NCBI RefSeq assembly: GCF_004353525.1
Contig: NZ_CP085524.1
Span: 2,390,142 to 2,454,141 of the forward strand
Reading direction: 5' to 3'
Length of the DNA: 64,000 nucleotides
Origin: Zhaonella formicivorans
GTDB lineage: Bacteria; Bacillota; DUOV01; Zhaonellaceae
Both the position numbers and the translations under genes were made by a program. How positions within the stretch are numbered: position 1 is the stretch's first letter; each line of letters starts with the position of its first letter. Positions 1 through 14,246 of the stretch are shown piece by piece. The notes below the pieces were generated by a model. The model ran no database searches. It was not told the origin of the DNA and saw nothing but the letters and a program-made list of their open reading frames with translations.

Positions 1-2350
1 GGTCCCCTTCCGCCCGAAGTTCCTCAACCATCTCCACTAACCGGGCAACTTTGGCTGAACGCCCGCGGCCTAAAGCCCCCCTATTTTCCTTTAAGATCAG
101 GTTGGGATGGTCACAGACCTGCTTCAATTTTGTTAAGGCAGCCAGGATGATCCCCCGTTTTTCCATACCTTCGGCATGGGTGAGCCGCTCAAACATATCG
201 GCAATGATATTTTCGTATAAAGAAGCCTGTTCCGCTGTCAAAGTAACGTATTCTTTGAACTCCTCCTTCTCCGGCAGATCAAGTTCGATGGCCGGATCCG
301 TTTTCACCCTGCGCAGGAGAAAAGGCTGTACTAACCGCTTAACCCTGGATACAGCTTGTGCATCTTTGCTTTTTTCAATAACGTTCACAAATTTACGGGT
401 AAATGCTGTTAAGCTGCCAAGGTAACCAGGATTCAGAAAGTCCATAATAGACCATAACTCAGTTAAGCGGTTTTCCATAGGAGTCCCGGTCAGCGCTATC
501 CTGTGGTTGCCGCGCAGGCTGCGGATAGCAACAGCCTGTTTGGTATAAGCATTTTTGATATTTTGGGCTTCATCCAGGCAGATACAGCCCCAATCCAGGG
601 AAGTCAGTTCTTCCCTGTCATGATGGGCCAGTGTATAAGAGGTAATTACCAAATCCTTGCCCAGCACCGCAGGAGCGAAATCTTCCCCTTTAACACGCTG
701 GGGACCGTAATGCAAATAAACCTTGAGCCCCGGGGCAAACCGCTTCAGCTCCATCTGCCAGTTGCCGATTACTGAAGTAGGGCAGATGAGCAAAAAAGGA
801 TTTGCGTCCTGTCCCTCTTCTTTGCAGCCTAACAAGTAAGCTATCAGTTGAATGGTTTTTCCTAAACCCATGTCATCGGCCAGACAACCGCCTAGGCCGA
901 ACCGGCGCAAAAACATCAGCCAGGAATAACCAACCCGCTGGTAGCCCCGCAGCACCCCTTGAAAAGCTTGCGGCGGTCCTAACAGTGGCAGGCGGGAAAT
1001 CTCAGTCAATTGACTGATCATCCCTCCCAGTTGGGAGTTTAACTCTACCTCCACGGGGAACGGATGCTCCATGGATTCGCTAGGCCCTGCTGAATCCTCC
1101 TGTCCCCCGTCACCGGCCAACAAATGCAGTCGCAAAACCTCCCCTAAAGACATCCCATTTCTTTTTGCTTTTAGGGTTTTTTTAATCTGCTGCAGGAGGA
1201 GGGGGTCAAGCTGAATCCACCGGCCCTTGATTTGCATTAGACGCCTTTTCTCTTCTGCCAGACGGTTGAACTCCTCCACCGACAGCTCCAAATCGCCGAT
1301 GGCCAGTTTCCAGTCAAACTGGACTATTTGCTCCAACCCAAACAGGGAATTCTGCAAAGAACCCACCGATGATTTGGTTTTCGCCTTAAGTTTGGGCCTC
1401 TCCTTGCGCACTTGTTCCCACCAGGCGGGTAAAAAAACGGTAAAACCGGCTTCGGCTAACTGCATGCTGCCGCTGTTTAAAAACTCCCAGGCCTGCTCTT
1501 CTGTAAGTTCCCGGATGATGCCGCTTTCAACGGACTGGTCCTTTAACCAGGGTAAAAGCCGAGTCCATTTTTGGATCTGTTTTTCCGGCTGATCAAGGTA
1601 GGACCGCCAGTGTTCAGGGTAATTATCTTTCGATGTCGGTTGATTTTGCTCGTATGGAACAAGTAGATGGGGGTTTTCCTTATCCTGCAAAACAATATTT
1701 AGGCTCCAGGAGGAACTGCCTTCAGGCTCCCGCAGCTGTAGGCAGGTGATAAAAGGAGTATGATCCTGTTTCCAGCCTATAGCCTCTAACCAGTCTTCCT
1801 CGCTCAATAGATTTTCTACCCCATGGTTTTCCAAGCGAAGCAAAGGATAAGTATCCATAAGGGCTTGCCAGGCCATAGCCAACTCCTGGTTTTGCCCGAT
1901 TAATTCAGGAATGATTGCATCAAGCCATTCCTCCAGGTAAGAAGGTGCGCCTCTCTTTTCCATCCCTTGCGGATAAACCAATTTCCATCCGGTTTTGCCC
2001 TTTTGCCACTTATCGTAGTCCGGCAGCCAACTGCCACTGACCAGCAGTTCCTTAAACACAGGGGCGATTTGCGCCAAGAGCTGTATTTCTTTGCTCCACT
2101 CTACCGAGAAAAACTCCGGCTCCGGCAAGTGGGCAAAAAAATCCAAGGCCGTAACAGGGGATAATTGGATGGCCTTTTTACCTTCGTAAACTGTTTCGGG
2201 AAGAAAAGTCCCGTAAAAGGAGGGACTGTGCCAGGCAAAGAGATTTAGTTTTAAGTTCAGATTATTCCAGCTTGCTGGCTTGCTCCAGAGCAAAAAGCCC
2301 TGGGATGGCTCCCACCGGCAAAACACTTTAAGCTTAGGTTTACCCTTCAT
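1..2350 (-). CDS. SNF2-family DEAD/H-box helicase, C-terminus beyond window
   Basis: This is a large SNF2/Rad54-type ATP-dependent DNA translocase, open at the window edge. About 783 residues are visible. Reading the minus strand gives the Walker A-like motif DDMGLGKT near residue 491 and the DEAQ box (LDEAQNIKN) near residue 592. Motif III-like ALTGTPMENR follows. Helicase motifs V and VI would lie outside the window. The roughly 450 residues before the ATPase core match the bacterial SNF2 helicase-associated region in position, and no transmembrane stretch is seen. The ATG at 2350 overlaps the stop of the upstream SWIM gene (ATGA), so the two are translationally coupled. Bacterial SNF2 and SWIM proteins are commonly paired; the partner function is unknown. 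Stops before 1 cannot be judged. Confidence 0.9.
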   Translation of the reverse strand, partial: MKGKPKLKVFCRWEPSQGFLLWSKPASWNNLNLKLNLFAWHSPSFYGTFLPETVYEGKKAIQLSPVTALDFFAHLPEPEFFSVEWSKEIQLLAQIAPVFKELLVSGSWLPDYDKWQKGKTGWKLVYPQGMEKRGAPSYLEEWLDAIIPELIGQNQELAMAWQALMDTYPLLRLENHGVENLLSEEDWLEAIGWKQDHTPFITCLQLREPEGSSSWSLNIVLQDKENPHLLVPYEQNQPTSKDNYPEHWRSYLDQPEKQIQKWTRLLPWLKDQSVESGIIRELTEEQAWEFLNSGSMQLAEAGFTVFLPAWWEQVRKERPKLKAKTKSSVGSLQNSLFGLEQIVQFDWKLAIGDLELSVEEFNRLAEEKRRLMQIKGRWIQLDPLLLQQIKKTLKAKRNGMSLGEVLRLHLLAGDGGQEDSAGPSESMEHPFPVEVELNSQLGGMISQLTEISRLPLLGPPQAFQGVLRGYQRVGYSWLMFLRRFGLGGCLADDMGLGKTIQLIAYLLGCKEEGQDANPFLLICPTSVIGNWQMELKRFAPGLKVYLHYGPQRVKGEDFAPAVLGKDLVITSYTLAHHDREELTSLDWGCICLDEAQNIKNAYTKQAVAIRSLRGNHRIALTGTPMENRLTELWSIMDFLNPGYLGSLTAFTRKFVNVIEKSKDAQAVSRVKRLVQPFLLRRVKTDPAIELDLPEKEEFKEYVTLTAEQASLYENIIADMFERLTHAEGMEKRGIILAALTKLKQVCDHPNLILKENRGALGRGRSAKVARLVEMVEELRAEGD

Positions 2351-3945
2351 GCCAATTTCCCTTTACGCAGTTCTTCTTGCAAGGCACGCAGCCTGCTGTA
2401 CCGGCTGGTCAAACTTGCCATATAGCGTTCCCATTCCTCTGTGCGCTTCAATTTTTTATAATAGTTGCGCAATTTTCTCAAAAGAGGCACTGCTGAGCGG
2501 TAAGACTGGCGATTGCGCCGCTCAATCAAATTGGCCACATACTGGTGATAAAGGGGAAGAAGGAGCGATACATCGGCTGCTTCCACCCGGCGTACTTCCT
2601 CGGGCTCAATTTCCTCGTAGCTTTGCTGAAAAATATGGAAGTTAACCCAGGTTTTATATCTGCCTGACACCAGGAGCGCTTCTCTATAAAAACCAACGCT
2701 CTCCGGCAAGATGGACTGCAAAGCAGCCAAAGCCTCTTCCTGGCAAGAGGGATCCCCGGCTATTTGCAGCCAGTAGCCGCAGAGGGCTTGCAGTTCAAGA
2801 TAGGAAGTGCGATCAATGCCAGGGGTGAGATGGCGCAGCCATTCTGCCAGCCTTTCCCAGGCCTTAGCCTCGTACAAGTTTTTTAGGTATGGAGCAGCAA
2901 AATAAATATTAAAGCCATTGTCCTTGTTCATAATTGCACAGGCCTTTGCATCATCCCCTGCCAAAAAAGCAAAGTGGGCCAGTCCCGTTGCCACGTTGCA
3001 CCTAACCTCTGTGGTTAAATTTTTCCGGTTTAGAATTTCCTCCAGCTTGAACACTTCCACCGTAACCCAATCCCGGTGCCTGGCAAAAATTGTCCACAGC
3101 CTCCGGTAAGTCCAGGCCCAATCAAAAAAGGAGTTATTATCCTCACACAGTCTTTCCCTTAAATCGGAAATTGTTTTGCTAAAATACAATGCGTCTTCCT
3201 GCTTGTCCATTTCAGCGCTAAACGCTGCCGCTGTTTCACATAACAGGGTTGTGTAATAGTCCCGCCAATTTCCTATTCCTATATAGTTGTAATAATATTC
3301 CCTTTTTCTAGGATGCATGTCCAGCTGCCGCATGGCAAACAGAACAGCGTGAAATAAGAAGTAGTGTTTTGCGGGACTACCCCATTTGCGGCAAGCCCTT
3401 TCAACCTTGGCAAAAAAGTCCCGGCATTGCAGTTGCTCTGTGCTGAAATAATAAGAGGAGAGATTTTCAAAAGGACCGGCGCACTTGCTAAATTGTGCCT
3501 CGTAGTACATTTCCCAGTCTGCAAAGGTACCTTTTTCCTCCGGTACTGTTTCCTTTTTTGCAGCTTTGGCAGTTTTTAGCCGTTGTTTTTTGCTTTTGGC
3601 AATTTCGTCAACATTGTTGACAAATTCGCCGGGCCAACCATAAACAGCGTACAAATATAAAAATGCGGCGGCCACATGCTCGCACCGCACCCCTACCGGG
3701 CAACTACACCGGCTTAAGCTGAAATCTTGCAAATTTATATTTACCAGATAGCGGTACTTTCCCTGGACGGTGGCCTGCACCTTATCGGGGGTAACTACCA
3801 CGTTATATACTTGTCCATTTCGATAGTAGTCTAACCCACGCCTAATTGTCTGATAAGTTAGTACAAAAGCCGCTTCTCCGGCCAGCTCCTGAACTTGCTC
3901 TTTGCTAATTTTGTCTTTTAACATCATATCACCCGCATATTGCAT
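2347..3945 (-). CDS. SWIM zinc-finger protein
   Basis: This 532-residue protein carries a SWIM zinc finger at residues 80-90 (C80, C82, C88, H90; CxCx5CxH) followed by a hydrophobic helix. The remainder is Trp/Leu/Tyr-rich and helical, and resembles the repeat-like C-terminal part of bacterial SWIM proteins. SWIM domains are thought to bind DNA or protein. The gene ends inside the start codon of the SNF2 gene, so both products are probably made together and act as a complex or on the same DNA substrate. Start choice is uncertain: ATG at 3945 has AGGAG only one base upstream, while the in-frame ATG pair 18 bases on (MMLKDK) has a GGGTGAT upstream. The N-terminal difference is six residues. Confidence 0.88.
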   Translation of the reverse strand: MQYAGDMMLKDKISKEQVQELAGEAAFVLTYQTIRRGLDYYRNGQVYNVVVTPDKVQATVQGKYRYLVNINLQDFSLSRCSCPVGVRCEHVAAAFLYLYAVYGWPGEFVNNVDEIAKSKKQRLKTAKAAKKETVPEEKGTFADWEMYYEAQFSKCAGPFENLSSYYFSTEQLQCRDFFAKVERACRKWGSPAKHYFLFHAVLFAMRQLDMHPRKREYYYNYIGIGNWRDYYTTLLCETAAAFSAEMDKQEDALYFSKTISDLRERLCEDNNSFFDWAWTYRRLWTIFARHRDWVTVEVFKLEEILNRKNLTTEVRCNVATGLAHFAFLAGDDAKACAIMNKDNGFNIYFAAPYLKNLYEAKAWERLAEWLRHLTPGIDRTSYLELQALCGYWLQIAGDPSCQEEALAALQSILPESVGFYREALLVSGRYKTWVNFHIFQQSYEEIEPEEVRRVEAADVSLLLPLYHQYVANLIERRNRQSYRSAVPLLRKLRNYYKKLKRTEEWERYMASLTSRYSRLRALQEELRKGKLA

Positions 3946-4200: not shown

Positions 4201-4617
4201 CTAAAATACCTTTGTTACAATTGCTTTAACAAACACGCTAAAATCGTCCAAGTGTTCCTGAAGAATCTTATAAATTTCATTGTCGTCAACAGTGTGGTAC
4301 AAATGAACCACTCTGTTCCGGAACTTGACCATCTGATTCAGAATGTTCAACTCTCTGGAGGTAAAGTAACCGTTTCGTTCGAGTATCCTGAAAGATTCAA
4401 CACTTGTTTCCGGCGTCCTCCACCTGTTTCTGGCAATAATATGATTTGCTATATCAATCATCGCTTCCACATTGACCTGTAACAAATGCTTAGCCGCTTC
4501 CACGTTACGAAAATCTCCGGTAAACTCTTCCAAGCTGTATTTTCCAAGCTCCTTTAATTTTGTGAGATTTTGTTCAATGAGCTGTATTTTACTGCGGATT
4601 TTTTCCTTATCAACCAT
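4201..4617 (-). CDS. hepT: HepT-like HEPN ribonuclease toxin (first pair)
   Basis: This 138-residue all-helical protein has the HEPN RNase motif RX4HXY at R100, H105 and Y107 (RNRVVHLY). HepT toxins of this family cleave RNA, often tRNA, and are silenced by their MntA partner. I start it at the ATG at 4617 (MVDKEK) because that is the usual family N-terminus and gives an 8-base overlap with the upstream mntA gene; a longer ORF runs back to 4674 inside mntA. It is the distal gene of a two-gene operon and is followed by a hairpin. It sits between imperfect direct repeats, which suggests the pair is an inserted module. Confidence 0.85.
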   Translation of the reverse strand: MVDKEKIRSKIQLIEQNLTKLKELGKYSLEEFTGDFRNVEAAKHLLQVNVEAMIDIANHIIARNRWRTPETSVESFRILERNGYFTSRELNILNQMVKFRNRVVHLYHTVDDNEIYKILQEHLDDFSVFVKAIVTKVF

Positions 4618-5038
4618 CGGTGTACGCCTCCTTAACAGCCTGATCGTATTCTTCGTAAAAGCAGTGCAGGTCAATGGCGTAGTCTTGGTACTGCCCTATT
4701 ACTTTTTCAATATAATCACATGTGGCGATGTAGTCTTTTTCATAAATAATCTTACCTTCTACAATAGCTCTGAACTGAATACTGAGAGGAGCTTTGTTTA
4801 GGTTGACCAGATCAACCCTGTCAGTTCCAAGGAAAGCTGATAGTTTAGCCAAAATAGCCATTTCTTCAGACAAACCAATGTTTTTGTTAAAAAAGACAGC
4901 AAAATCTATATCGCTTAAAACGGTTTGTTTCTCTGTACCATAGGAACCAAATAAAAAAACTGCTAAAACGGCAGGTATTTCCGAGAAAAATGCCGGCAGA
5001 TTTTGTAGTTTTTCGTCTAACTCAAGCTTTTTAGTCAT
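4610..5038 (-). CDS. mntA: MntA-like nucleotidyltransferase antitoxin (first pair)
   Basis: A 142-residue minimal nucleotidyltransferase. The signature GSX10DXD is intact (G31-S32, D43, D45 in GSYGTEKQTVLSDIDFAV). In characterised HepT/MntA systems the MntA enzyme adds AMP groups to a tyrosine next to the HepT active site; the toxin here has the equivalent Tyr107. The 3' end overlaps the toxin start by 8 bases. Upstream, 5039-5271 holds no gene, only the second repeat copy. The start at ATG 5038 is preceded by GGGGAGGCTTTGTT, a good ribosome site. Confidence 0.87.
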   Translation of the reverse strand: MTKKLELDEKLQNLPAFFSEIPAVLAVFLFGSYGTEKQTVLSDIDFAVFFNKNIGLSEEMAILAKLSAFLGTDRVDLVNLNKAPLSIQFRAIVEGKIIYEKDYIATCDYIEKVIGQYQDYAIDLHCFYEEYDQAVKEAYTDG

Positions 5039-5149: not shown

Positions 5150-5282
5150 AAACTCCATTCTAAAGCGTAACTATTTTATCGGCCACACATGCAACGTAGA
5201 CAAAAAATACAGCGTGACAATTTATGCCACACCATGCAATGAAATGCTTCACGTTTTTACCTTATCCATTTTCAACAGGAAC
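5150..5282. repeat. Imperfect direct repeat, copy B (pairs with 3995-4127)
   Basis: Second copy of the roughly 130-bp repeat flanking the HepT/MntA pair. Its last 11 bases overlap the 3' end of the corrinoid protein gene. The internal dyad of copy A is broken here. The rest of 5039-5271 shows no ORF that I would support. Confidence 0.6.
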
Positions 5283-5910
5283 ATTTTTCTTTTAAGATTT
5301 TTTCATAGATTTCCAGCGCCTGTGTCACATCGTTGGCGTAATAATCCACGCCGGTATATTCTTTGACCAGTTGATTAACCGGGTATCCCCCTACCACTAC
5401 TTTGACTTTATCCCGTAAGCCGGCTTCTTGTAAAAGATCAACCACTTTTTTTACGGAGCCTACGCAAAAAGACAGCAAAACACTGATCCCCAGAATTGAG
5501 GCACCGGTTTCATTTACCGCTTGTACAAATTTCTCCGGCGGTACATCAACACCCAGGTCGTGAACATGAAAGCCGCGGGAGCGGAGAAGGTAAATCACAA
5601 TGTTCTTGCCAAGATCGTGAATATCCCCTTCAATGGTACCCATCACAATAGAAAAGCCGTTTTGAGGGACGTTAACAGGAATATGGGGTTCTACAATGCG
5701 CATAACGCCTTTAAAAATTTCTTCCGACATAATCAGGTCGGATAGAAAATACTGTCCCTCACTATACCTTTTCCCGACTATTTCCACACCTCTCCTGCAG
5801 GTATCAACAATTTCCAAAGGAGTAAGACCTGCCTGGAGTTGTTTTTCGACTAAACAGAGTGTTTTATCTTCATCAAGGTCCGCCATGGCCGTTAGCAACT
5901 CGTCTTCCAT
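5272..5910 (-). CDS. Corrinoid (B12-binding) methyltransfer protein, copy 2
   Basis: This 212-residue protein has the two-part architecture of MtaC/MtvC/MttC proteins: an N-terminal helical cap (residues 1-85) and a C-terminal Rossmann-like B12 domain. The lower-axial-ligand motif DXHXXG is intact (D96, H98, G101 in GDIHDLGKN). Its cobamide would carry a methyl group from a substrate methyltransferase to a tetrahydrofolate methyltransferase in the cytoplasm. The start at 5910 is chosen because GGAGGG lies 6 bases upstream; a longer frame to 5949 overlaps the GntR gene. It follows the GntR gene by 20 bases and is probably co-transcribed with it, apart from the first corrinoid protein of the cluster. 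Confidence 0.9.
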   Translation of the reverse strand: MEDELLTAMADLDEDKTLCLVEKQLQAGLTPLEIVDTCRRGVEIVGKRYSEGQYFLSDLIMSEEIFKGVMRIVEPHIPVNVPQNGFSIVMGTIEGDIHDLGKNIVIYLLRSRGFHVHDLGVDVPPEKFVQAVNETGASILGISVLLSFCVGSVKKVVDLLQEAGLRDKVKVVVGGYPVNQLVKEYTGVDYYANDVTQALEIYEKILKEKCSC

Positions 5911-5930
5911 CAAAGCCCTCCAGATATTGT

Positions 5931-6713
5931 TCATTCTTTTCGATACCACCCGTCATACGCCGTCAGCTTATAACGGTCTCCGCGATAAACGGACTTGCCC
6001 CACCCCACCGGCTTGAGCTCGGGGTCATATATAGTTTGTTCTATTACAAAAACCGGGGAACCCTGTGCAATCCCCAAGATGGAGGCCTCTTCGTCGGTAG
6101 AAACGGAAACTTGTAAGACTTTCTTGGAACTGACGGGCAAATAATCGCTGTGAGCAGTAACCAAACCAGGCAAAGTGGGGTCCTGCAGTTCTGATTCCAG
6201 AATAGGCTTACTCTTAGTATATATTGTATATTTCCTTTCATACGCCAAGGGTTCATCTTCTGCGGAAAGGACGATACGAAAAAACAGGAACCTGGCATTG
6301 TCGTCATTTATTTGAAACTTTTCTTTTAACTGTTCATCAGCCCTTACTATCCTTGCTTCTAACAGCGTAGTGTTAAATCGCAAACCTCTTTGTTTAATTT
6401 CTTCACTGAAATTATTCAGCTCAAAAACTATATTATCCAGTTTTGGAACAGCCACAAAAGTGCCTTTGCCCTGTTGGGCATATACCATTCCTGCCGCCAC
6501 CAGCTCCGCAATAGCCTTGCGGACCGTCATGCGGCTGATCTGGTAACGGGCAGCAAGTTCCATCTCGGTAGGCAGCGCCTCACCCGGTTTTAATTCACCC
6601 CGCCGGATCTGCCCTTCCAGCAGTCTAGCTAACTGATAATAGATAGGTATCACTGAGTTTTTATCAATTTTCAATTCTTCTTGCACGTTATAAACACCTG
6701 TCTTGTCTGTCAT
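5931..6713 (-). CDS. GntR-family regulator, HutC/UTRA subfamily
   Basis: A 260-residue regulator. An N-terminal winged helix (residues about 20-90, with TEMELAARYQISRMTVRKAI) is followed by a UTRA ligand-binding domain (about 105-250). Such proteins usually repress genes for uptake or catabolism of the compound they bind. The locus carries a HutC-like palindrome TTGTATATACAA at 13323-13334, downstream of the promoter of the methyltransferase operon, which is the likely target. The gene has its own promoter at 6734-6762. ATG 6713 has AGAGGG only one base away; GTG at 6686 (residue 10) with AGGTG 8 bases upstream is an alternative. Ligand unknown. Confidence 0.9.
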   Translation of the reverse strand: MTDKTGVYNVQEELKIDKNSVIPIYYQLARLLEGQIRRGELKPGEALPTEMELAARYQISRMTVRKAIAELVAAGMVYAQQGKGTFVAVPKLDNIVFELNNFSEEIKQRGLRFNTTLLEARIVRADEQLKEKFQINDDNARFLFFRIVLSAEDEPLAYERKYTIYTKSKPILESELQDPTLPGLVTAHSDYLPVSSKKVLQVSVSTDEEASILGIAQGSPVFVIEQTIYDPELKPVGWGKSVYRGDRYKLTAYDGWYRKE

Positions 6714-6733
6714 ACCCTCTAAACTTTAGCTCA

Positions 6734-6762
6734 ATATTATCATGCCATAAATTGGGGGTCAA
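6734..6762 (-). promoter_or_regulatory. Sigma-A type promoter for the GntR gene
   Basis: On the minus strand TTGACC (6762-6757), a 17-bp spacer and TAATAT (6739-6734). The predicted transcript starts about 14 bases before the GntR start codon. It sits directly after the stop of the RACo gene, so the GntR-corrinoid pair can be expressed independently. Confidence 0.6.
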
Positions 6763-6781
6763 TAGAATAGCGATTTCCATG

Positions 6782-8623
6782 TTACTTGCCGGTCCTGCTA
6801 AAAGAGAGCGACTTAACAAATTCTTGCTGAAATTCTTTGGTGTTGGAAAGCTCAATATGCTCAGCGCGCCGGGCCAGATTTACGGCCCTTTCTCTCTCCA
6901 CTGTGGACAGCAGGGCCATTTTAGCCCCGTCACCTGCAGCGTTGCCGATGGCAACGATGCGCTGGAGAGGTACAGGCGGCAGCAGCCCTATACCCAATGC
7001 GCTTTCTTTTTTGATAAAGTTTCCGAAAGCCCCGGCCAGGAGGACTTGGTCAATGTCTTCTGGGCCAACCCCCATTTCCCTGAGCAGGATCCGGGCCCCG
7101 GCCATAATGGCCCCTTTAGCCAGCTGCAGCTCCCGTACATCCTTTTGGGTGAGCACAATATCCTCCCCCGTGGCCGAGTCTGTACCCCACACCAGGACAA
7201 ACTCCATGCCCCGCCCCTCTTTGCGCAGGCGCTTGCGCACCAGAGGCGGCAGCTTTTGTAGCTGGGCATCGGCACTGGCCAAGCGTCCCGAGGAATCGAG
7301 GACACCTGCTTTATACATTTCCGCAATGGCGTCTATTAGGCCGGAACCGCAGATGCCACGCGGTTTGCCTCCGGCAATGACGTCCAACTCAACATCTGCG
7401 GAAATGCGCACTCCTTCGATGGCCCCCTCGGCAGCCCGCATGCCGTACTTAATCTCTGCCCCTTCAAAAGCCGGCCCAGCCGCCGTTGAACAAGTGAGAA
7501 TTCTGCCTCTGCCAACCAGAACTATCTCGCCGTTTGTGCCAATATCTATGATCAAATTAATCCCCCGGAGGCGGTCCACACCGGCCGCCAGCATAACGCC
7601 AACTGTATCCGAACCGACATAACCGGCCACGTTGGGCAAAACTATCACTTTTCCCGTGGCAAGTATATTCAGACCCAACTCCCTGGCCTCCACCTCAACG
7701 GCTTGACGGAAAACAGGGATAAAAGGCGCCGGGGCTAAATAAGTGGGATCTATGCCTAAAAATAAATGGCTCATGGTGGTGTTGCCCACCACTACTGCCT
7801 GGTAGATTTCCTCAGGGCGCACATCATGCTCATGGCACAACCGGGCTATGACGTCATTTAGTCCGCCGACAACTTTCTCCTGCAGTTGGTGCAACCCTTC
7901 CGGCCCGCTGGCCGCGTGGGTTATCCTGGCGATCACATCGGCACCAAAAGCATTTTGGGGATTGGTAACTGCCCCGCTGGCCACAACTGTACCCTTGTTC
8001 AGGTCGAGCAAATAAACCACAACTGTAGTAGTACCTATATCCACTGCCAAGCCGTAACAACGGCCAAGCGTATCGCCGGGTTCCACAGCCAACAGGGTAT
8101 CACCGTCAAGCACCGCCGTCACTTGAAAGTTACTCCTTCTTAAAACACGCGGCAGATAAGCTGCCACCGGGCGACTGAAGCGGATTCCCGGACGATCCAA
8201 AGCAGACAAAAGACGCTCCCAGTCCGGAGTCTGTTCCTCTGTACTTGGCTTTGGGAGAGAAACCAGGTACTTGCGCACACTGGGTGTCACCGAAGTTTGT
8301 TCCACCACTGGGTTAAAACCGATTTTCCGGTCATATGCGTCCTTCTGCTCCCTCAAGTTTACCACCGTATCTTCTTGCAGCATCCGCTGGCAGGCCAATA
8401 CCCAGCCTGCGGACAGCTGGGCCTGGCTTAAAAATTTCTTTTCAACAGGCGAAGGAGGAGAAAGTTTTTCCGGGGAAAGCTGCACCAGGCATTTTCCACA
8501 GGTCCCTTTACCTCCGCAAGTGCTTTCCACTTGCACCCCGGCCGCTATAGCTGCCTGCAGGATAGTGGTCCCGGCAGGGACCTCTACCATTTTATTAGAA
8601 GGCAAAAATTTAACCCTGATCAT
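6782..8623 (-). CDS. RACo-type reductive activator of corrinoid proteins
   Basis: About 613 residues: an N-terminal 2Fe-2S ferredoxin domain (counting from the TTG two codons upstream, C38, C44, C47 and C80; CX5CX2C...C) and a long C-terminal ASKHA-type ATPase domain (GLAVDIGTTTVVVYLLD, then IIDIGTNGEIV and LAGAFGNF). RACo proteins use ATP to reduce cobalamin(II), formed by accidental oxidation, back to cobalamin(I). One activator can serve several corrinoid proteins, so it may also service the mtaC-like protein at 19.9 kb. ATG at 8623 has AAGGGA 9 bases upstream; a TTG at 8629 is possible. A stem-loop with poor U-tract separates it from the upstream methyltransferase gene. Confidence 0.92.
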   Translation of the reverse strand: MIRVKFLPSNKMVEVPAGTTILQAAIAAGVQVESTCGGKGTCGKCLVQLSPEKLSPPSPVEKKFLSQAQLSAGWVLACQRMLQEDTVVNLREQKDAYDRKIGFNPVVEQTSVTPSVRKYLVSLPKPSTEEQTPDWERLLSALDRPGIRFSRPVAAYLPRVLRRSNFQVTAVLDGDTLLAVEPGDTLGRCYGLAVDIGTTTVVVYLLDLNKGTVVASGAVTNPQNAFGADVIARITHAASGPEGLHQLQEKVVGGLNDVIARLCHEHDVRPEEIYQAVVVGNTTMSHLFLGIDPTYLAPAPFIPVFRQAVEVEARELGLNILATGKVIVLPNVAGYVGSDTVGVMLAAGVDRLRGINLIIDIGTNGEIVLVGRGRILTCSTAAGPAFEGAEIKYGMRAAEGAIEGVRISADVELDVIAGGKPRGICGSGLIDAIAEMYKAGVLDSSGRLASADAQLQKLPPLVRKRLRKEGRGMEFVLVWGTDSATGEDIVLTQKDVRELQLAKGAIMAGARILLREMGVGPEDIDQVLLAGAFGNFIKKESALGIGLLPPVPLQRIVAIGNAAGDGAKMALLSTVERERAVNLARRAEHIELSNTKEFQQEFVKSLSFSRTGK

Positions 8624-8652
8624 TTCCAACAGTCCCTTCTATATAGATAAAA

Positions 8653-8701
8653 GAACAAAAGCATTTGATGCCTTTCGGCATCATGGGTAATGCTTTTGTT
8701 C
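8653..8701 (-). terminator. Long stem-loop between the MeTr and RACo genes
   Basis: Minus strand: a 13-bp outer stem (GAACAAAAGCATT / AATGCTTTTGTTC), a 5-nt bulge and a 7-bp inner stem closed by GAAA. It is followed by TTTTATC. It could be a partial terminator that sets lower activator expression, or a processing signal. Confidence 0.6.
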
Positions 8702-8767
8702 TTTGTTCTCATCCTCAATAATGCGGCAAGCAATTGCCACTGTCCGCAAAACGCCGCCCCGCTTCCC

Positions 8768-9559
8768 TTAATCCTCCAACGCATCATTCCGGTATGCTTT
8801 AAGGTAGTTACGGGAAAACCGGTCCTTATTTAAAAGCAGTTCGGTAGTTATGACTGCGCTGGTGAGCTTGCGATCGGTGGAATCCATGATGGCCGCATCC
8901 ATGCCATAACTCATGCAGATGGTTAAGAAGTATCTGTTGATTAGTTTTCTCTTGGGCATTTGATGGGATACATTGCTCAAGCCCGAAACAGTCTTAACTC
9001 CGTATTTTTTCTTAATTTCAGCAAGACAGTTAAAGAAAATTACAGCGTTGTCATTGCCCACCGCCAGGGGAAGCACCAGCGGATCAACGTACACTTCGTT
9101 TAAGTCGATTTTTTCCTTGTTCAGCACTTCAACCAGCTCTCCGGCAATCCTGATTCTCTCTTCAGCCGTTTTTGGTATTCCATTGTCATCCATAGTCAAG
9201 GCTATTACCGAACATCCATACTCTTTAATCAGCGGAAGCATGCCTTCAAGCCGGCTTTTTTCCATGCTGATTGAGTTAAGCATCGCTTTCCCCCGGTGGA
9301 TTTGCAAAGCCCTTTTGGCCACCCGGGGTTCAGTAGTGTCAATACATAGGGGCACATCGACCACTTCTTGGACTGCCCTCACCATCCACTCCATATCCTC
9401 AGCTTCATCATTCCCCTGGGCAGTATTTACATCAATAAAACCGGCTCCTCCTTCCGCCTGCCTGCGCGCCAAGTCCTGCACAAAGGCAATATCCTTATTC
9501 TTAATAGCTTCACGGACAGAGGGGATAGCACTGTTTAATTTTTCACCAATAATCAGCAT
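8768..9559 (-). CDS. Methyltetrahydrofolate:corrinoid methyltransferase (MeTr/MtvA family)
   Basis: A 263-residue pterin-binding TIM-barrel protein (MLIIGEKLNS start, GGAGFIDVNTAQG, PLCIDTTEP, SGLSNVSHQMP). These segments are typical of AcsE/MtvA-type enzymes that move methyl groups between tetrahydrofolate and a corrinoid protein. In this cluster it would take the methyl group from the corrinoid protein to tetrahydrofolate, feeding the Wood-Ljungdahl pathway. Length agrees with the family (about 260-270). The start ATG at 9559 follows GGAGGTCAAACCGAC. Neighbours are the MFS carrier upstream and the RACo activator downstream, all in one direction with short gaps. Confidence 0.9.
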   Translation of the reverse strand: MLIIGEKLNSAIPSVREAIKNKDIAFVQDLARRQAEGGAGFIDVNTAQGNDEAEDMEWMVRAVQEVVDVPLCIDTTEPRVAKRALQIHRGKAMLNSISMEKSRLEGMLPLIKEYGCSVIALTMDDNGIPKTAEERIRIAGELVEVLNKEKIDLNEVYVDPLVLPLAVGNDNAVIFFNCLAEIKKKYGVKTVSGLSNVSHQMPKRKLINRYFLTICMSYGMDAAIMDSTDRKLTSAVITTELLLNKDRFSRNYLKAYRNDALED

Positions 9560-9631
9560 GTCGGTTTGACCTCCTGGTTGTCTTATATTTTTCTACTGCT
9601 CTACAAATGTTAAACCTTGCGGCGCTGCCGC

Positions 9632-10849
9632 TTAAAAAGCACTCTCATTTTGCCTTTCAGGCTTTTTCCCCATAATTTTAGCAAAAAGCAAACTTGTGGC
9701 AATGGAAATGGAAAGCGCACTTGTCAGCGGGATTGAACCAGCTCCCCAATTCGCCTGCGCATTATTGACAATTCCCCCCACCACAGGTGGCCCAAGAACA
9801 AATCCCACGTTAAACAAGAGATTGAGAACAGCCATGGCCAGTCCGGCCAGCTGCGGTGAGGCAACCGCCTCCGGCGCTAAAGTAAAAGTAGTGGTGGCAA
9901 AAAAACCAGGGAAAAAACCCAACATGAGCATCCATGGCACTATCCAGCCGGCAGACCCTAATAAAAATGAGTATCCATATAAAAAGCAGGCAACAACGCT
10001 GCTTATAACCAGCATAGTCTTAGGTCGTTGCAGTTTGTCAATCGCCCATCCGGCTATTACGGTAGATATAATGGCTACCATGGGACTCAGGCTAACGTAG
10101 AAGTTGGCCAGCTCAGGGGAAATATTATGGGCTTGTGTTAAATAGCTGGGCGCCCAGGTAACAAAACCGGCGTTGGCAAAACCAAACCCGCCAAATCCGG
10201 CAGCCAACAGCCAAATTGCAGGCCTTTTTAAGGCGGAGTTATATGATACCTTGTCAGTACTATTTGTCGCCTCTTGCCCTGTACCGGCAACCTTTGGGGG
10301 GTCCGCAACAACCAATGCATATACAATCAAAGCAGCCAAAGCTATTAGCGTACCAAACCACCATACGCCTCTCCAGCTAAAAGCCGGTATCAACAGGTTA
10401 GCAAGGTTAAAGATTAAAAAGCTGCCCACAGGCACCCATGAAGCCCAAATTCCCATGGGAACTCCCCGTTTTTCGGGGGGAAACCACATAACAATTACGG
10501 CAGGAGCCACTACTGCCATAAGTCCTAAACCGATCCCTTCAATAACCCGGCCTGCAAGCAGCACCGCGGCATTCATAGCAAATCCGCCCAACACCGAACC
10601 GATGACCGTGCAAATTAAGGCCAGCATGCCGCTTAACTTTCCGCCAACCCGGTCTAAAACCAGGGCTGCCGGCAGCGAAAGCACGACTCCCGCCACAGCA
10701 AAGACGGACATCAACCACCCGCCCAAGGCCATGTCGATGTGCAGCTGGTTAAGGAGGATATCCATAACGGGCGGCACTTTAAATTGGTTAACGACCACAG
10801 CTACACTGGCTAAATAGGCCGCCCACATTACTCCCCAAGCTTTACCCAT
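9632..10849 (-). CDS. MFS transporter in the methyltransferase operon
   Basis: A 405-residue major facilitator protein with about 12 predicted membrane segments. The loop 2-3 signature is present as DRVGGKLSG, and a second-half repeat ends in DKLQRPKT. It begins at ATG 10849 with GGAGG 6-7 bases upstream; the longer ORF to 10921 reads through that ribosome site. Position between the corrinoid protein and the methyl-THF methyltransferase suggests it imports the methylated substrate or exports the demethylated product. Family resemblance is to anion:cation symporter or CynX/NimT-like MFS proteins, but I cannot name the substrate. Confidence 0.85.
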   Translation of the reverse strand: MGKAWGVMWAAYLASVAVVVNQFKVPPVMDILLNQLHIDMALGGWLMSVFAVAGVVLSLPAALVLDRVGGKLSGMLALICTVIGSVLGGFAMNAAVLLAGRVIEGIGLGLMAVVAPAVIVMWFPPEKRGVPMGIWASWVPVGSFLIFNLANLLIPAFSWRGVWWFGTLIALAALIVYALVVADPPKVAGTGQEATNSTDKVSYNSALKRPAIWLLAAGFGGFGFANAGFVTWAPSYLTQAHNISPELANFYVSLSPMVAIISTVIAGWAIDKLQRPKTMLVISSVVACFLYGYSFLLGSAGWIVPWMLMLGFFPGFFATTTFTLAPEAVASPQLAGLAMAVLNLLFNVGFVLGPPVVGGIVNNAQANWGAGSIPLTSALSISIATSLLFAKIMGKKPERQNESAF

Positions 10850-10971
10850 GTAAAGCCTCCTTTTTTTAACAAAAGATTTGTCATAGTATTGCTGGGGCCG
10901 CACAACCGGCCCCAGCAGCAAGAGAACATATTTAAGTTGGTGAGAAACCGGCTGAAGCTAAGGGTAGCCTG

Positions 10972-11604
10972 TTAGTGAGCTGCGAAAACTTTTTCTGCAA
11001 TCTTTACAGCATCACTGGCCGACTTGCCAAAGTAGTCGGCACCCACGCTATCTTTCACCATTTCGTCAACATAGTTTCCTCCGATGAGGACCGTAACATT
11101 TAAGCCGGCAGCCCTGATGGCCTCTATCGTGTCCTTCATGGCATCCTGGCACCCGGTGAGCAGGACGCTCATCCCTACAAGAGGTGCATTATATTCATTA
11201 ATCGCTTCAATAAATTTTTCTGTGGGTACATCTACGCCCAGATCAACTACATTGTACCCGGCACCTTTGAGCAACATGACCACTATATTTTTCCCCAGGT
11301 CATGCACATCGCCACGGACCGTACCAATCACGATGTTACCGCGGTGTTCCTGTTGGGCCCCTGCCAGGTGCGGTTCCAGGATTTCCATAGCCTCCTTCAT
11401 GATTTCCCCGCACATAACCAGTTCGCTTAAAAAATACTCGCCCGATTCAAAGCGGAGCCCTACCTCCGTCATCCCTTCCTGCAAAGCCCCTACAATCTCC
11501 AAAGGAGCGATACCGGCTTCCAAGCGTTCTTTCACCAGCTCCAGCACTTTTTCATCTTCCAACTCAGCGATAGCACTTGCTAATTGATCTGAAAGTACAG
11601 CCAT
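10972..11604 (-). CDS. Corrinoid (B12-binding) methyltransfer protein, copy 1
   Basis: A 210-residue MtaC/MtvC-type protein with a helical cap (1-85) and a B12 domain. DXHXXG is intact at D99, H101 and G104 (GDVHDLGKN). It is the likely direct partner of the URO-D-type methyltransferase 300 bp upstream: that enzyme would methylate its cobalt, and the methyl-THF methyltransferase would take the methyl off. Start at ATG 11604 is set by GGGAGG 9 bases upstream; the ORF extending to 11712 reads through the preceding small gene. It shares the overall fold with the proteins at 5272 and 19942, but the three are clearly divergent, arguing against recent duplication. Confidence 0.92.
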   Translation of the reverse strand: MAVLSDQLASAIAELEDEKVLELVKERLEAGIAPLEIVGALQEGMTEVGLRFESGEYFLSELVMCGEIMKEAMEILEPHLAGAQQEHRGNIVIGTVRGDVHDLGKNIVVMLLKGAGYNVVDLGVDVPTEKFIEAINEYNAPLVGMSVLLTGCQDAMKDTIEAIRAAGLNVTVLIGGNYVDEMVKDSVGADYFGKSASDAVKIAEKVFAAH

Positions 11605-11654
11605 TTTTTCAGTCCTCCCAAAAGTTTTTGTCCATTCAAAACAAAACTTACACC

Positions 11655-11834
11655 TTAGCGGTGAACCCAATACCAGAGGTAAATATAAGCAAAGGTGTCG
11701 AGCTTTTCCCATTCATTTTTTATAATCTCAGGGTTTCCGGCAATGGGCGCAAACTCTTTGAGCTTTTGTTCCCAAGGGATGCACACACCCGGTGGCATAC
11801 CTTTTAATTCTTCTTTTTTCGGCATTTCCGTCAT
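11655..11834 (-). CDS. 59-residue small protein of the methyltransferase operon
   Basis: A short ORF lying between the URO-D-type methyltransferase and the corrinoid protein. It starts at ATG 11834 with GGGGAGG 8-9 bases upstream and ends with TAA at 11655-11657. The protein opens MTEMPKKEELKGMPPG, has a single Cys at about residue 18, and ends in an aromatic stretch LDTFAYIYLWYWVHR. It is charged and soluble-looking, with no signal peptide or membrane helix. I do not recognise a family. The strong ribosome site, operon position and tight spacing (73 bp after the methyltransferase, 50 bp before the corrinoid protein) argue it is real. It could be an accessory subunit or adaptor of the methyltransferase. 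Confidence 0.7.
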   Translation of the reverse strand: MTEMPKKEELKGMPPGVCIPWEQKLKEFAPIAGNPEIIKNEWEKLDTFAYIYLWYWVHR

Positions 11835-11907
11835 CAGCCTTACCTCCCCGGCTTAAAATCAAAGTTTTTATTCAAAACAACTGCCAACAGCAAAATTATA
11901 ATGGCTG

Positions 11908-13083
11908 CTAATAAACTCCATATTCTCTTGCTGTTTCAATCAGGGCTATAATGTTTTCCGTCTTCGCATCAGACTGAATCACGCCTGCGGCGTCAATAAT
12001 GAACCCTCCGTCAGCGGCATATTCGTCAATTAACTTCTTGCAATAGTCACGTACTTCTTCCGGTTTGCCATAAGAGATCATTGTATTTGGCACATTTCCG
12101 CTCAAGCAGAACCTGCCGCCCAAAATTTCTTTAGCCTTGGCCATATCAGTCTGGTCTACATGGAAGACAATGCTCTTTTCCGGCAGCTCCGCGATTTTCT
12201 CCAGGTAGGGAGTCCAGTTGCCCTCAGCATAGAAAAGTGTCCGTTTCCCTTGGGCCCACAAGCCCTCAATCACTTTTTTAAGCGTTGGCCAATAGAAACT
12301 ATCCCACTGTTTGGGGTTGAGGAACGGATAGCTGCCACGGTGGAGCGGAAGAAAAGCCGGAAGCACGGTGTCTCCGCCAGCAGTGGCTAGAGCGTAGAAG
12401 ATGTTATGGGGCACAAGCACTTCCATAGCTGCCAGCACTTTATCCGGGCGCTTGCGCAAATCCATCATGATCCCTTTTAGGCCCCGTAATGTGTCACCTA
12501 AAGTGTCAAATGGCGCCTTGAGGATCCCGCTAATCGATGTTGGGACGCCGTATTCCTTGGCGCATGTTGCTGCCGCCTGCTGCATGGCTCCGTTGGCCAT
12601 CACCAAGGCAGCGGCACCTTTGATCAAAGCCAGATTGGCGCGGTATGAACCGGGCTCGGCAAATTCCTCGTGAATACGGGGCAGATATGTGTTCAGGATC
12701 CACTTGGTCGGGTCTTCGATAAAGGCATCATAATCCTCTGGCAGCATATACTCTTCTTCCACGTACTGAAACTGCCGGTTTTCCTCCAACTGCCTGCCGG
12801 CAAATTTTAGGTATTTGGCCCCTACCGCATCATGCAATGAGGCCCACCAGAGACTGGGAGCGCCGAATACGGCATCCACGTCAAAATCTGCTAGAAATTT
12901 ATTAACAGCAGCATTATTTTTGTCCAAATCGTAGTAAATTTCCTGTAAGGTAAAACCGGCATATTTAGCCAAAAATTCACTGACTTGCAGGCGAATGGGG
13001 ACTTTATCCGGTTTGCCTAAGTCCATGGCGGTCGTATAGCGGCTCAATCTTTCCTGAAAAACCTTTTCTTTCTCACTGGCCAT
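11908..13083 (-). CDS. Uroporphyrinogen-decarboxylase-family methyltransferase (substrate:corrinoid)
   Basis: A 391-residue TIM-barrel protein of the URO-D/MtaA/MtvB superfamily. Recognisable parts are DKVPIRLQVSEF near the N-terminus, LLPLHRGSYPFL-like region, the FYAEGNWTPYL segment, VFHVDQTDMAKAK and FCLSGNVPNTMI. In Moorella-type O-demethylases an MtvB protein of this family transfers a methyl group from a methoxyl substrate to a corrinoid protein. With a corrinoid protein, methyl-THF methyltransferase and RACo encoded downstream it completes such a system here. It could instead act as an MtaA-like methylcobamide transferase. It is the first gene of the operon, with AGGAGG 8 bases before ATG 13083. 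Confidence 0.85.
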   Translation of the reverse strand: MASEKEKVFQERLSRYTTAMDLGKPDKVPIRLQVSEFLAKYAGFTLQEIYYDLDKNNAAVNKFLADFDVDAVFGAPSLWWASLHDAVGAKYLKFAGRQLEENRQFQYVEEEYMLPEDYDAFIEDPTKWILNTYLPRIHEEFAEPGSYRANLALIKGAAALVMANGAMQQAAATCAKEYGVPTSISGILKAPFDTLGDTLRGLKGIMMDLRKRPDKVLAAMEVLVPHNIFYALATAGGDTVLPAFLPLHRGSYPFLNPKQWDSFYWPTLKKVIEGLWAQGKRTLFYAEGNWTPYLEKIAELPEKSIVFHVDQTDMAKAKEILGGRFCLSGNVPNTMISYGKPEEVRDYCKKLIDEYAADGGFIIDAAGVIQSDAKTENIIALIETAREYGVY

Positions 13084-13340
13084 AACAATACCTCCTGTCT
13101 TTAATCAGCAATGCTTAACACAGAGTAAAATGCACCATTGCTTCTACTTATTTTCCCGGCATCCCCCCGTTTTCCCGTCTTTTCCTTACTGCAGGGCCCA
13201 ACAAACTTATATCTATTTTTTAAGTAAGCAGACCATTTTAAACCTGGCTTAAAGTTTAAAATACCAAAGAGCGATAATCTTCCAATAAAAGGAATTTCAA
13301 AAAAATTTATCTATTTGTTATATTGTATATACAACTGATT
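13084..13340 (-). other. About 255-nt leader of the methyltransferase operon
   Basis: No gene. If the promoter at 13348-13377 is used, the transcript has a leader of about 255 nt. It contains a 9-bp inverted repeat (ATTTTAAAC at 13235-13243, GTTTAAAAT at 13254-13262) and a smaller AGCAATG/CATTGCT stem shortly before the ribosome site. I do not recognise a cobalamin or other known riboswitch in it. Confidence 0.4.
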
Positions 13341-13377
13341 TTTCTTTATTTTAGTACAATTCAATTAAGTAGGTCAA
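13323..13377 (-). promoter_or_regulatory. Promoter and HutC-like operator of the methyltransferase operon
   Basis: Minus strand: -35 TTGACC (13377-13372), 18-bp spacer, -10 TAAAAT (13353-13348). Thirteen bases further downstream lies a perfect palindrome TTGTATATACAA (13334-13323), so it would cover about +7 to +18. The core GTATATAC/TGTATATACA resembles the operators of HutC-subfamily GntR regulators, one of which is encoded in the same locus at 5931-6713. A repressor bound here would block initiation or early elongation. Confidence 0.65.
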
Positions 13378-13423: not shown

Positions 13424-13443
13424 AAACGCCCACATGGGCGTTT
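13424..13443 (-). terminator. Hairpin at the end of the second hepT gene
   Basis: AAACGCCC-ACAT-GGGCGTTT, a perfect 8-bp stem overlapping the hepT stop codon and followed on the minus strand by CTTTAGTTT. It separates the toxin-antitoxin pair from the methyltransferase promoter. Confidence 0.65.
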
Positions 13444-13846
13444 ACAACTTTAGTACTGTTTTAGTAAACTCCTGGAGATCCTTCAAATGGTCCTCGATAA
13501 TCTTCCGGACTATCTCAAGATTAATTGCCTGATAGTCGTGAATAGCAATATTGCGAAAACCAACCATTGCCTTTAGCTTTTCTGCCAAAGCCAGAGATAT
13601 AATGTTATTTTGATAAAGCAGATCAAATGCCTCTCGGCTTGTTTGAGGTATTCCCAAATTATTTTCTGCAACAAGATGCATAGCAAGATCAATGCTTGCC
13701 TCACATGCCCGCTGGATATTTAGTATAATCGAGTCCTGTTTAGTAAAGTTTTGTAGGTTGTCAGGGTTATTGCCGTATTCTTCATGTATTCTTCTAATGC
13801 AGCGCTCAATTATCTGACTCTTATTCAAAATTATATCATTCTCCAT
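13442..13846 (-). CDS. hepT: HepT-like HEPN ribonuclease toxin (second pair)
   Basis: A 134-residue helical HEPN protein with RX4HXY at R98, H103 and Y105 (FRNIAIHDY). It is the toxin half of a HepT/MntA pair and differs strongly from the first toxin at 4201, so the two pairs were probably acquired separately rather than duplicated. It overlaps the upstream mntA gene by 11 bases. ATG at 13846 is preceded by AAGAGGAAGTATCT. The pair sits immediately upstream of the methyltransferase operon promoter, and the other pair sits at the far end of that cluster. Confidence 0.85.
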   Translation of the reverse strand: MENDIILNKSQIIERCIRRIHEEYGNNPDNLQNFTKQDSIILNIQRACEASIDLAMHLVAENNLGIPQTSREAFDLLYQNNIISLALAEKLKAMVGFRNIAIHDYQAINLEIVRKIIEDHLKDLQEFTKTVLKL

Positions 13847-14246
13847 AGATACTTCCTCTTTCCTTAATTCTCTCTAGGATACATTTTCGCTCTTCATTCA
13901 ACTTAACATATTTTTTGAGCGCAAGGAGGTGGAAAAGCATTCTCCTGTTTTCATCGCTGCAGTAAATAACTTTTCCGGTCCTGATTACCTGCATTTGAAA
14001 AACTGTTGACGCCTGGTTTAAATCAATCAGATCAACATCTAAACCTAACAAGCCGGCCAACTCTTGAGCAGTGACAAAAATCCTGTAACTATCGTGCTTT
14101 TGTTCGCTTAAAAAAGCAATATCCAAATCGCTGTCCTTTCTTGCCTTGCCTTGAACATAAGAACCAAATATATATATAAGATATGGTAATATTTTTTTCT
14201 GCAAGTGCCCTACAATCAATTTTAGTTCTTTTTCAGTCAGCTCCAT
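13836..14246 (-). CDS. mntA: MntA-like nucleotidyltransferase antitoxin (second pair)
   Basis: A 136-residue minimal nucleotidyltransferase with an intact GSX10DXD motif (G28-S29, D40, D42; FGSYVQGKARKDSDLDIAF). It would adenylylate the adjacent HEPN toxin at the tyrosine of its RX4HXY motif. The start at ATG 14246 has GGGGGGATATATC upstream, a strong ribosome site. The 190 bp further upstream (14247-14435) contain no gene that I can support. Confidence 0.87.
   Translation of the reverse strand: MELTEKELKLIVGHLQKKILPYLIYIFGSYVQGKARKDSDLDIAFLSEQKHDSYRIFVTAQELAGLLGLDVDLIDLNQASTVFQMQVIRTGKVIYCSDENRRMLFHLLALKKYVKLNEERKCILERIKERGSIYGE

Follow-up and report, generated by a model that had tools for sequence, protein, structure and literature searches.

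An Mtv-type corrinoid O-demethylase operon predicted in Zhaonella formicivorans, in which methyltransferase I probably has a small subunit and a GntR–corrinoid protein pair is conserved

To our knowledge, the vanillate (Mtv) system has been regarded as a set of three proteins ever since Naidu and Ragsdale, in 2001, reportedly described MtvB of Moorella thermoacetica within a three-component system. Genome G015, which is taken to be that of M. thermoacetica DSM 521 and whose gene order fits the published gene numbers, has two URO-D copies, each clustered with a methyltransferase II and a corrinoid protein. The first cluster consists of the methyltransferase II gene c03140, two IS21 genes, the URO-D gene c03170, a small gene at a skipped number, and the corrinoid protein gene c03190. 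The IS21 genes, for a transposase and a helper ATPase (L093, 8022–10273), lie between the methyltransferase II and MtvB genes. The second cluster holds c12950 (corrinoid protein), c12980 (URO-D), c12990 (MFS), c13000 (corrinoid protein), a small gene, c13020 (URO-D) and c13030 (methyltransferase II). We take the genes of these two clusters for mtv genes, which makes the URO-D protein described below a relative of MtvB. As for the published labels, those in section 2.6 of PMC13391211, in the part of that source available to us, seem scrambled: the printed c12020 fits c13020, and c12980, labelled mtaB2, is by position an insertion-type URO-D protein.

In the Mto system of Methermicoccus shengliensis, as given in the available parts of PMC8630106, methyltransferase I, corrinoid protein, methyltransferase II, activator, MFS carriers and regulator are clustered, similar to the locus described here, but the methyl group passes to H4MPT. 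The Cdm system of Acetobacterium dehalogenans also shares a URO-D methyltransferase I, a corrinoid protein and a methyltransferase II with this locus, and CdmB does not use zinc (available parts of PMC13222342).

The Z. formicivorans locus lies in a stretch of 64,000 nucleotides (contig NZ_CP085524.1, positions 2,390,142 to 2,454,141), hereafter the window, in a genome of 3,314,304 bases on a single contig. An earlier note on this DNA had claimed a corrinoid methyl-transfer cluster, and open reading frame and domain searches of the window recover every gene that it named, all eight on the minus strand, in the order URO-D protein, 59-residue protein, corrinoid protein 1 (CP1), MFS carrier, methyl-THF methyltransferase, RACo, GntR regulator and corrinoid protein 2 (CP2). 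The features, in window coordinates, are:

13348..13377, minus strand: candidate promoter TTGACC-18-TAAAAT from a consensus scan (10 of 12 positions match; the number of such matches is not above chance)
13323..13334, no strand assigned: perfect palindrome TTGTATATACAA, a candidate operator that lies a short way downstream of the promoter-like site and recurs in relatives
11908..13083, minus strand: predicted MtvB-type methyltransferase I with URO-D fold, 391 residues (Pfam URO-D 81 bits; identity to MtvB; tree; AF2 model)
11655..11834, minus strand: 59-residue putative small subunit of methyltransferase I, a putative detached C-terminal domain (synteny, fusions, purifying selection)
10972..11604, minus strand: CP1, predicted methyl carrier of MtvC type, 210 residues (B12-binding domains; clade; Phe at the MetH F708 position)
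9632..10849, minus strand: MFS carrier, 405 residues, probably for substrate uptake (MFS_1 166 bits)
8768..9559, minus strand: predicted methyl-corrinoid:THF methyltransferase (methyltransferase II, MtvA-type), 263 residues (PRK07535 331 bits, cut-off 259; AcsE-type structures)
6782..8623, minus strand: RACo-type reductive activator, 613 residues (RACo_C_ter, middle, linker and Fer2 domains)
5931..6713, minus strand: GntR-UTRA transcription regulator, 260 residues (GntR and UTRA domains; CP2 next in all assessable relatives)
5272..5910, minus strand: CP2, regulator-linked corrinoid protein, 212 residues (B12-binding domains; GntR-linked clade; Tyr49 at the MetH F708 position)

The starts of CP1 (11604), the MFS carrier (10849), RACo (8623) and CP2 (5910) were corrected; that of CP1 sits after GGGAGG, and the start of the alternative 246-residue frame lies upstream of this ribosome site. 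Both corrinoid proteins keep the DxHxxG motif.

Compared with the M. thermoacetica Mtv proteins, sequence identity is 60–61% for the URO-D methyltransferase I (against both MtvB copies), 71% for the corrinoid protein and 64% for methyltransferase II. A small gene is present between mtvB and mtvC in M. thermoacetica as well, and an MFS gene and a GntR–corrinoid pair are found in the same region. The earlier note regarded the MFS carrier, the 59-residue protein and CP2 as additions to the three-component core; none of them is therefore peculiar to this locus. MFS genes also adjoin the Mto genes (PMC8630106, available parts), so a carrier is normal for such clusters. The locus differs from the Moorella region in having one gene run that includes RACo, and in lacking the second, insertion-type URO-D enzyme. 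The URO-D and small genes are absent from two other genomes of the same family, and the locus is thus accessory in this organism.

Both flanks of the operon carry MntA/HepT-type toxin–antitoxin pairs on the minus strand (window 13442–14246 and 4201–5038), with MntA model scores of 124 and 83 bits (cut-off 60) and HepT-like Pfam matches. Further along the same strand (2347–3945) is a gene for a 532-residue protein whose sole match is a SWIM zinc finger, with none in NCBIfam. The genome has a second methyl-transfer cluster at 2353000–2372900, some 40 kb from this one, which encodes an MtaA/CmuA-like URO-D protein (29% identity) and a methyltransferase II and includes two corrinoid genes.

The URO-D fold is common to several enzyme types, and the assignment of the window protein depends on features other than fold. 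The AF2 model (pLDDT 94.5) gives Z 28 against human UroD and Z 26.5 against the Methanosarcina mazei methyltransferase 4ay7, and such a comparison, made with a library that runs to April 2026 and does not have CdmB among its entries, confirms the superfamily only; fold alone cannot separate UroD from the methyltransferases. The shared fold is what speaks for a true uroporphyrinogen decarboxylase or a CoM methyltransferase (MtaA/MtbA), a reading we count as already refuted. The protein scores 25.5 bits with the hemE model (cut-off 303) and lacks the HemE N-terminal signature, which together with its position in the MtvB clade and the operon context rules out HemE membership. Similarly, a score of 45 bits with the mtaA_cmuA model (cut-off 235) and the absence of the H-x-C zinc motif, in whose place is YAEGN, rule out membership of the zinc-dependent MtaA/CmuA (MtbA) group. 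Clustering with true uroporphyrinogen decarboxylases was the outcome that the earlier note had set against its own proposal; this was checked, and in a tree of 119 sequences the protein instead groups with the MtvB copies in a supported clade.

A closer competitor is a Cdm-type dehalogenase acting on haloalkanes (chloromethane), which would use the same chemistry with a methyl halide in place of a methoxylated aromatic. By sequence, CdmB is the best match among solved structures (E 1.4e-43), several haloalkane degraders have uncharacterised URO-D enzymes according to the available parts of PMC13222342, and the window protein resembles CdmB in that it has no H-x-C motif. The MtvB copies are, however, far closer to it. 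CdmB, which has extra residues at about 72–79, falls in a clade of its own kind (SH-aLRT 99), apart from the window protein; the remaining sequences of that clade carry an insertion of 22 residues at about residues 72–79, which is missing from the window protein. The tree and the missing insertion exclude membership of the Cdm clade, although CdmB is the closest structure by sequence. Furthermore, a gas needs no dedicated carrier, and we regard a dehalogenase as quite improbable.

With an MtvB-clade methyltransferase I, a DxHxxG corrinoid protein, a methyltransferase II and a Co(II) activator, the components of the Mtv type are all encoded, and gene content and MtvB orthology bear out the earlier proposal of a complete corrinoid methyl-transfer operon, which is predicted to be a corrinoid O-demethylase operon of the Mtv type. 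The earlier note also held that the substrate cannot be told from sequence. This stands as far as proof is concerned, but the URO-D protein is orthologous to MtvB, and the field is thereby narrowed to methoxylated aromatics as the most likely substrates.

The 59-residue frame is preceded by its own ribosome site, GGGGAGG. In each of the 44 distinct relatives whose downstream DNA is intact, the small gene comes directly after the URO-D gene; the one locus that does not show it (L049) is on a contig that stops 148 bases past the URO-D gene. Among 398 sampled genomes of the phylum, 30 have a URO-D match at 49% or above and all of these have the small protein as well, and the few matches outside such genomes and the fused proteins are all weak, with E above 1e-5. 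The dN/dS ratio is 0.05–0.08 in the most constrained split pairs, with a median of 0.27 over 104 usable pairs. Because of the ribosome site, the conservation in 44 relatives and the low dN/dS, the frame can be considered a real gene. Trp42, Tyr50, Trp54 and Gly33 are invariant in 24 small-protein sequences. There is no Pfam match and no NCBIfam match over cut-off, and an AF2 model of the protein alone contains a long C-terminal helix (residues 35–58) at modest confidence (pLDDT 75).

In 12 sequences from nine genomes of deeper relatives, the same domain forms the C-terminal end of a fused URO-D protein, to which it is joined by a linker of roughly 20–45 residues. Fused and split forms group in a single clade (SH-aLRT 96), and four changes are required to place the three states on the tree. 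Fusion and strict synteny are the usual sign of subunits of one enzyme, and the 59-residue protein is best read as a detached domain that would bind the URO-D protein as a small subunit of methyltransferase I. A role as a helper, for example a corrinoid-loading or folding factor for CP1, would agree with the small size and helical character of the protein, and with the position of its gene, which most loci have between those for the URO-D protein and CP1. In four loci (L006, L008, L030 and L051), the small gene still follows the URO-D gene though the next gene is not CP1, and the 12 fusions are all to the URO-D protein, with no corrinoid-protein fusion seen. A helper is for these reasons unlikely, and assignment as a subunit of methyltransferase I is preferred. 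Since MtvB is said to have been described as part of a three-component system, the small subunit may be dispensable in vitro. No mention of it was found in the available parts of PMC13391211, PMC8630106 and PMC13222342, and a literature search in which subscription journals are thinly covered gave no paper on the small protein or on a corrinoid partner of GntR.

In one fused URO-D copy, from genome G323 (L102, 7239–9002), the reading frame is broken by a stop where the invariant Trp42 is normally encoded, and its sister copy in the same genome (L032) keeps Trp at that position. Another genome, G297 (L151), has six or more URO-D methyltransferase genes in tandem, some with a C-terminal extension resembling a very divergent small domain.

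Relatives without the small domain offer a further point of comparison. Of 65 such URO-D proteins, 45, all in one clade, have an insertion of 20–27 residues at about position 147, which in the AF2 model (window numbering) falls between helix 125–137 and helix 147–178. The CdmB-like clade has neither the C-terminal small domain nor this insertion, but about 22 extra residues at about 72–79, and 15 distant relatives have no domain and neither insertion. No sequence combines the small domain with the insertion at 147, an exclusion that amounts to a single phylogenetic contrast between two clades, as opposed to many independent events, and is no statistical proof. The pattern suggests that the small subunit and the insertions could be alternative covers of the barrel.

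The regulator combines the DNA-binding and UTRA domains of other UTRA-domain GntR repressors (HutC model 135 bits, cut-off 220), but is here paired with a corrinoid protein gene. In 31 of 33 loci the gene directly after GntR-UTRA is of the CP2 type, and the remaining two have no annotated downstream gene in the stretch covered. A search across the phylum shows the same arrangement in each of its 30 best matches, whichever URO-D class lies alongside. The GntR-linked corrinoid proteins form a clade of their own (SH-aLRT 89), apart from the corrinoid proteins linked to the small subunit, to fused enzymes and to insertion-type enzymes. At a position aligned to 1bmt, which we take to be F708 of Escherichia coli MetH, all 52 GntR-linked proteins have Tyr and all 39 carriers linked to the small protein have Phe. 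In MetH, F708 caps the methyl group. Tyr is also present in 9 of 47 other carriers, and the residue in CP2 is for that reason suggestive only.

The palindrome TTGTATATACAA occurs once in the 64 kb of the window (0.12 expected). Allowing at most one mismatch, 23 matches are found in 41 related loci compared with 1.6 in shuffles, and several copies are located shortly upstream of the URO-D or GntR gene. The site upstream of the URO-D gene is likely an operator, and a conserved GntR–CP2 gene pair and a shared candidate operator are thus both present. CP2 may be the corrinoid sensor of the GntR regulator. A strong contender, to which we give somewhat less than an even chance, is that CP2 is a second ordinary methyl carrier that serves another methyltransferase in trans, and is next to GntR through operon inheritance only. 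The core corrinoid-binding residues are kept in CP2, and Tyr at the F708 position in the nine other carriers agrees with such a role. However, CP2 lies behind GntR in all assessable relatives, next to three classes of methyltransferase I, and belongs to its own clade, while the carriers beside each methyltransferase class form other clades.

With CP2 taken as a partner of GntR, the locus can be described as an inducible Mtv-type O-demethylase operon. The MFS carrier would import a methoxylated aromatic of the vanillate or syringate type. Methyltransferase I, composed of the URO-D TIM barrel and the 59-residue subunit as a closing element, would offer the methoxy carbon to Co(I) on CP1. From the resulting methyl-Co(III), methyltransferase II would transfer the methyl group to THF, and, as the genome has an acetyl-CoA synthase gene, methyl-THF can plausibly enter the Wood–Ljungdahl pathway. 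RACo would re-reduce Co(II), GntR would repress at TTGTATATACAA, and CP2 would act as the GntR partner, possibly reporting methylation or redox state. The scheme as a whole appears probable to us, and builds on the observed gene content and orthology, the small domain in its split and fused states, GntR–CP2 pairing, recurrent palindrome and acetyl-CoA synthase gene. Its predicted parts are binding of the small subunit, the substrate, repression and sensing. More speculative, and on balance doubtful, is the combined proposition that the MtvB-type enzyme has two subunits, with the small one closing the active site, and that a dedicated, Tyr-capped corrinoid protein conveys its methylation or redox state to GntR.

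The new information concerns the Mtv kind itself: its methyltransferase I probably has a small subunit, and a GntR–corrinoid regulatory pair is conserved. Anaerobic O-demethylation channels lignin methoxy groups into acetogenesis and methanogenesis. Some of the substrate handling could be explained by a fourth protein, conserved and in origin a part of the first enzyme; it belongs in any reconstitution or structure of the system. According to the available parts of PMC13222342, how Acetobacterium regulates the conversion of methylated compounds is largely unexplored. The GntR–corrinoid pair with its recognisable candidate operator makes such regulation directly testable and, if the proposed role of CP2 is true, expression of the O-demethylase would be controlled by a methyl-group sensor based on a B12 protein.
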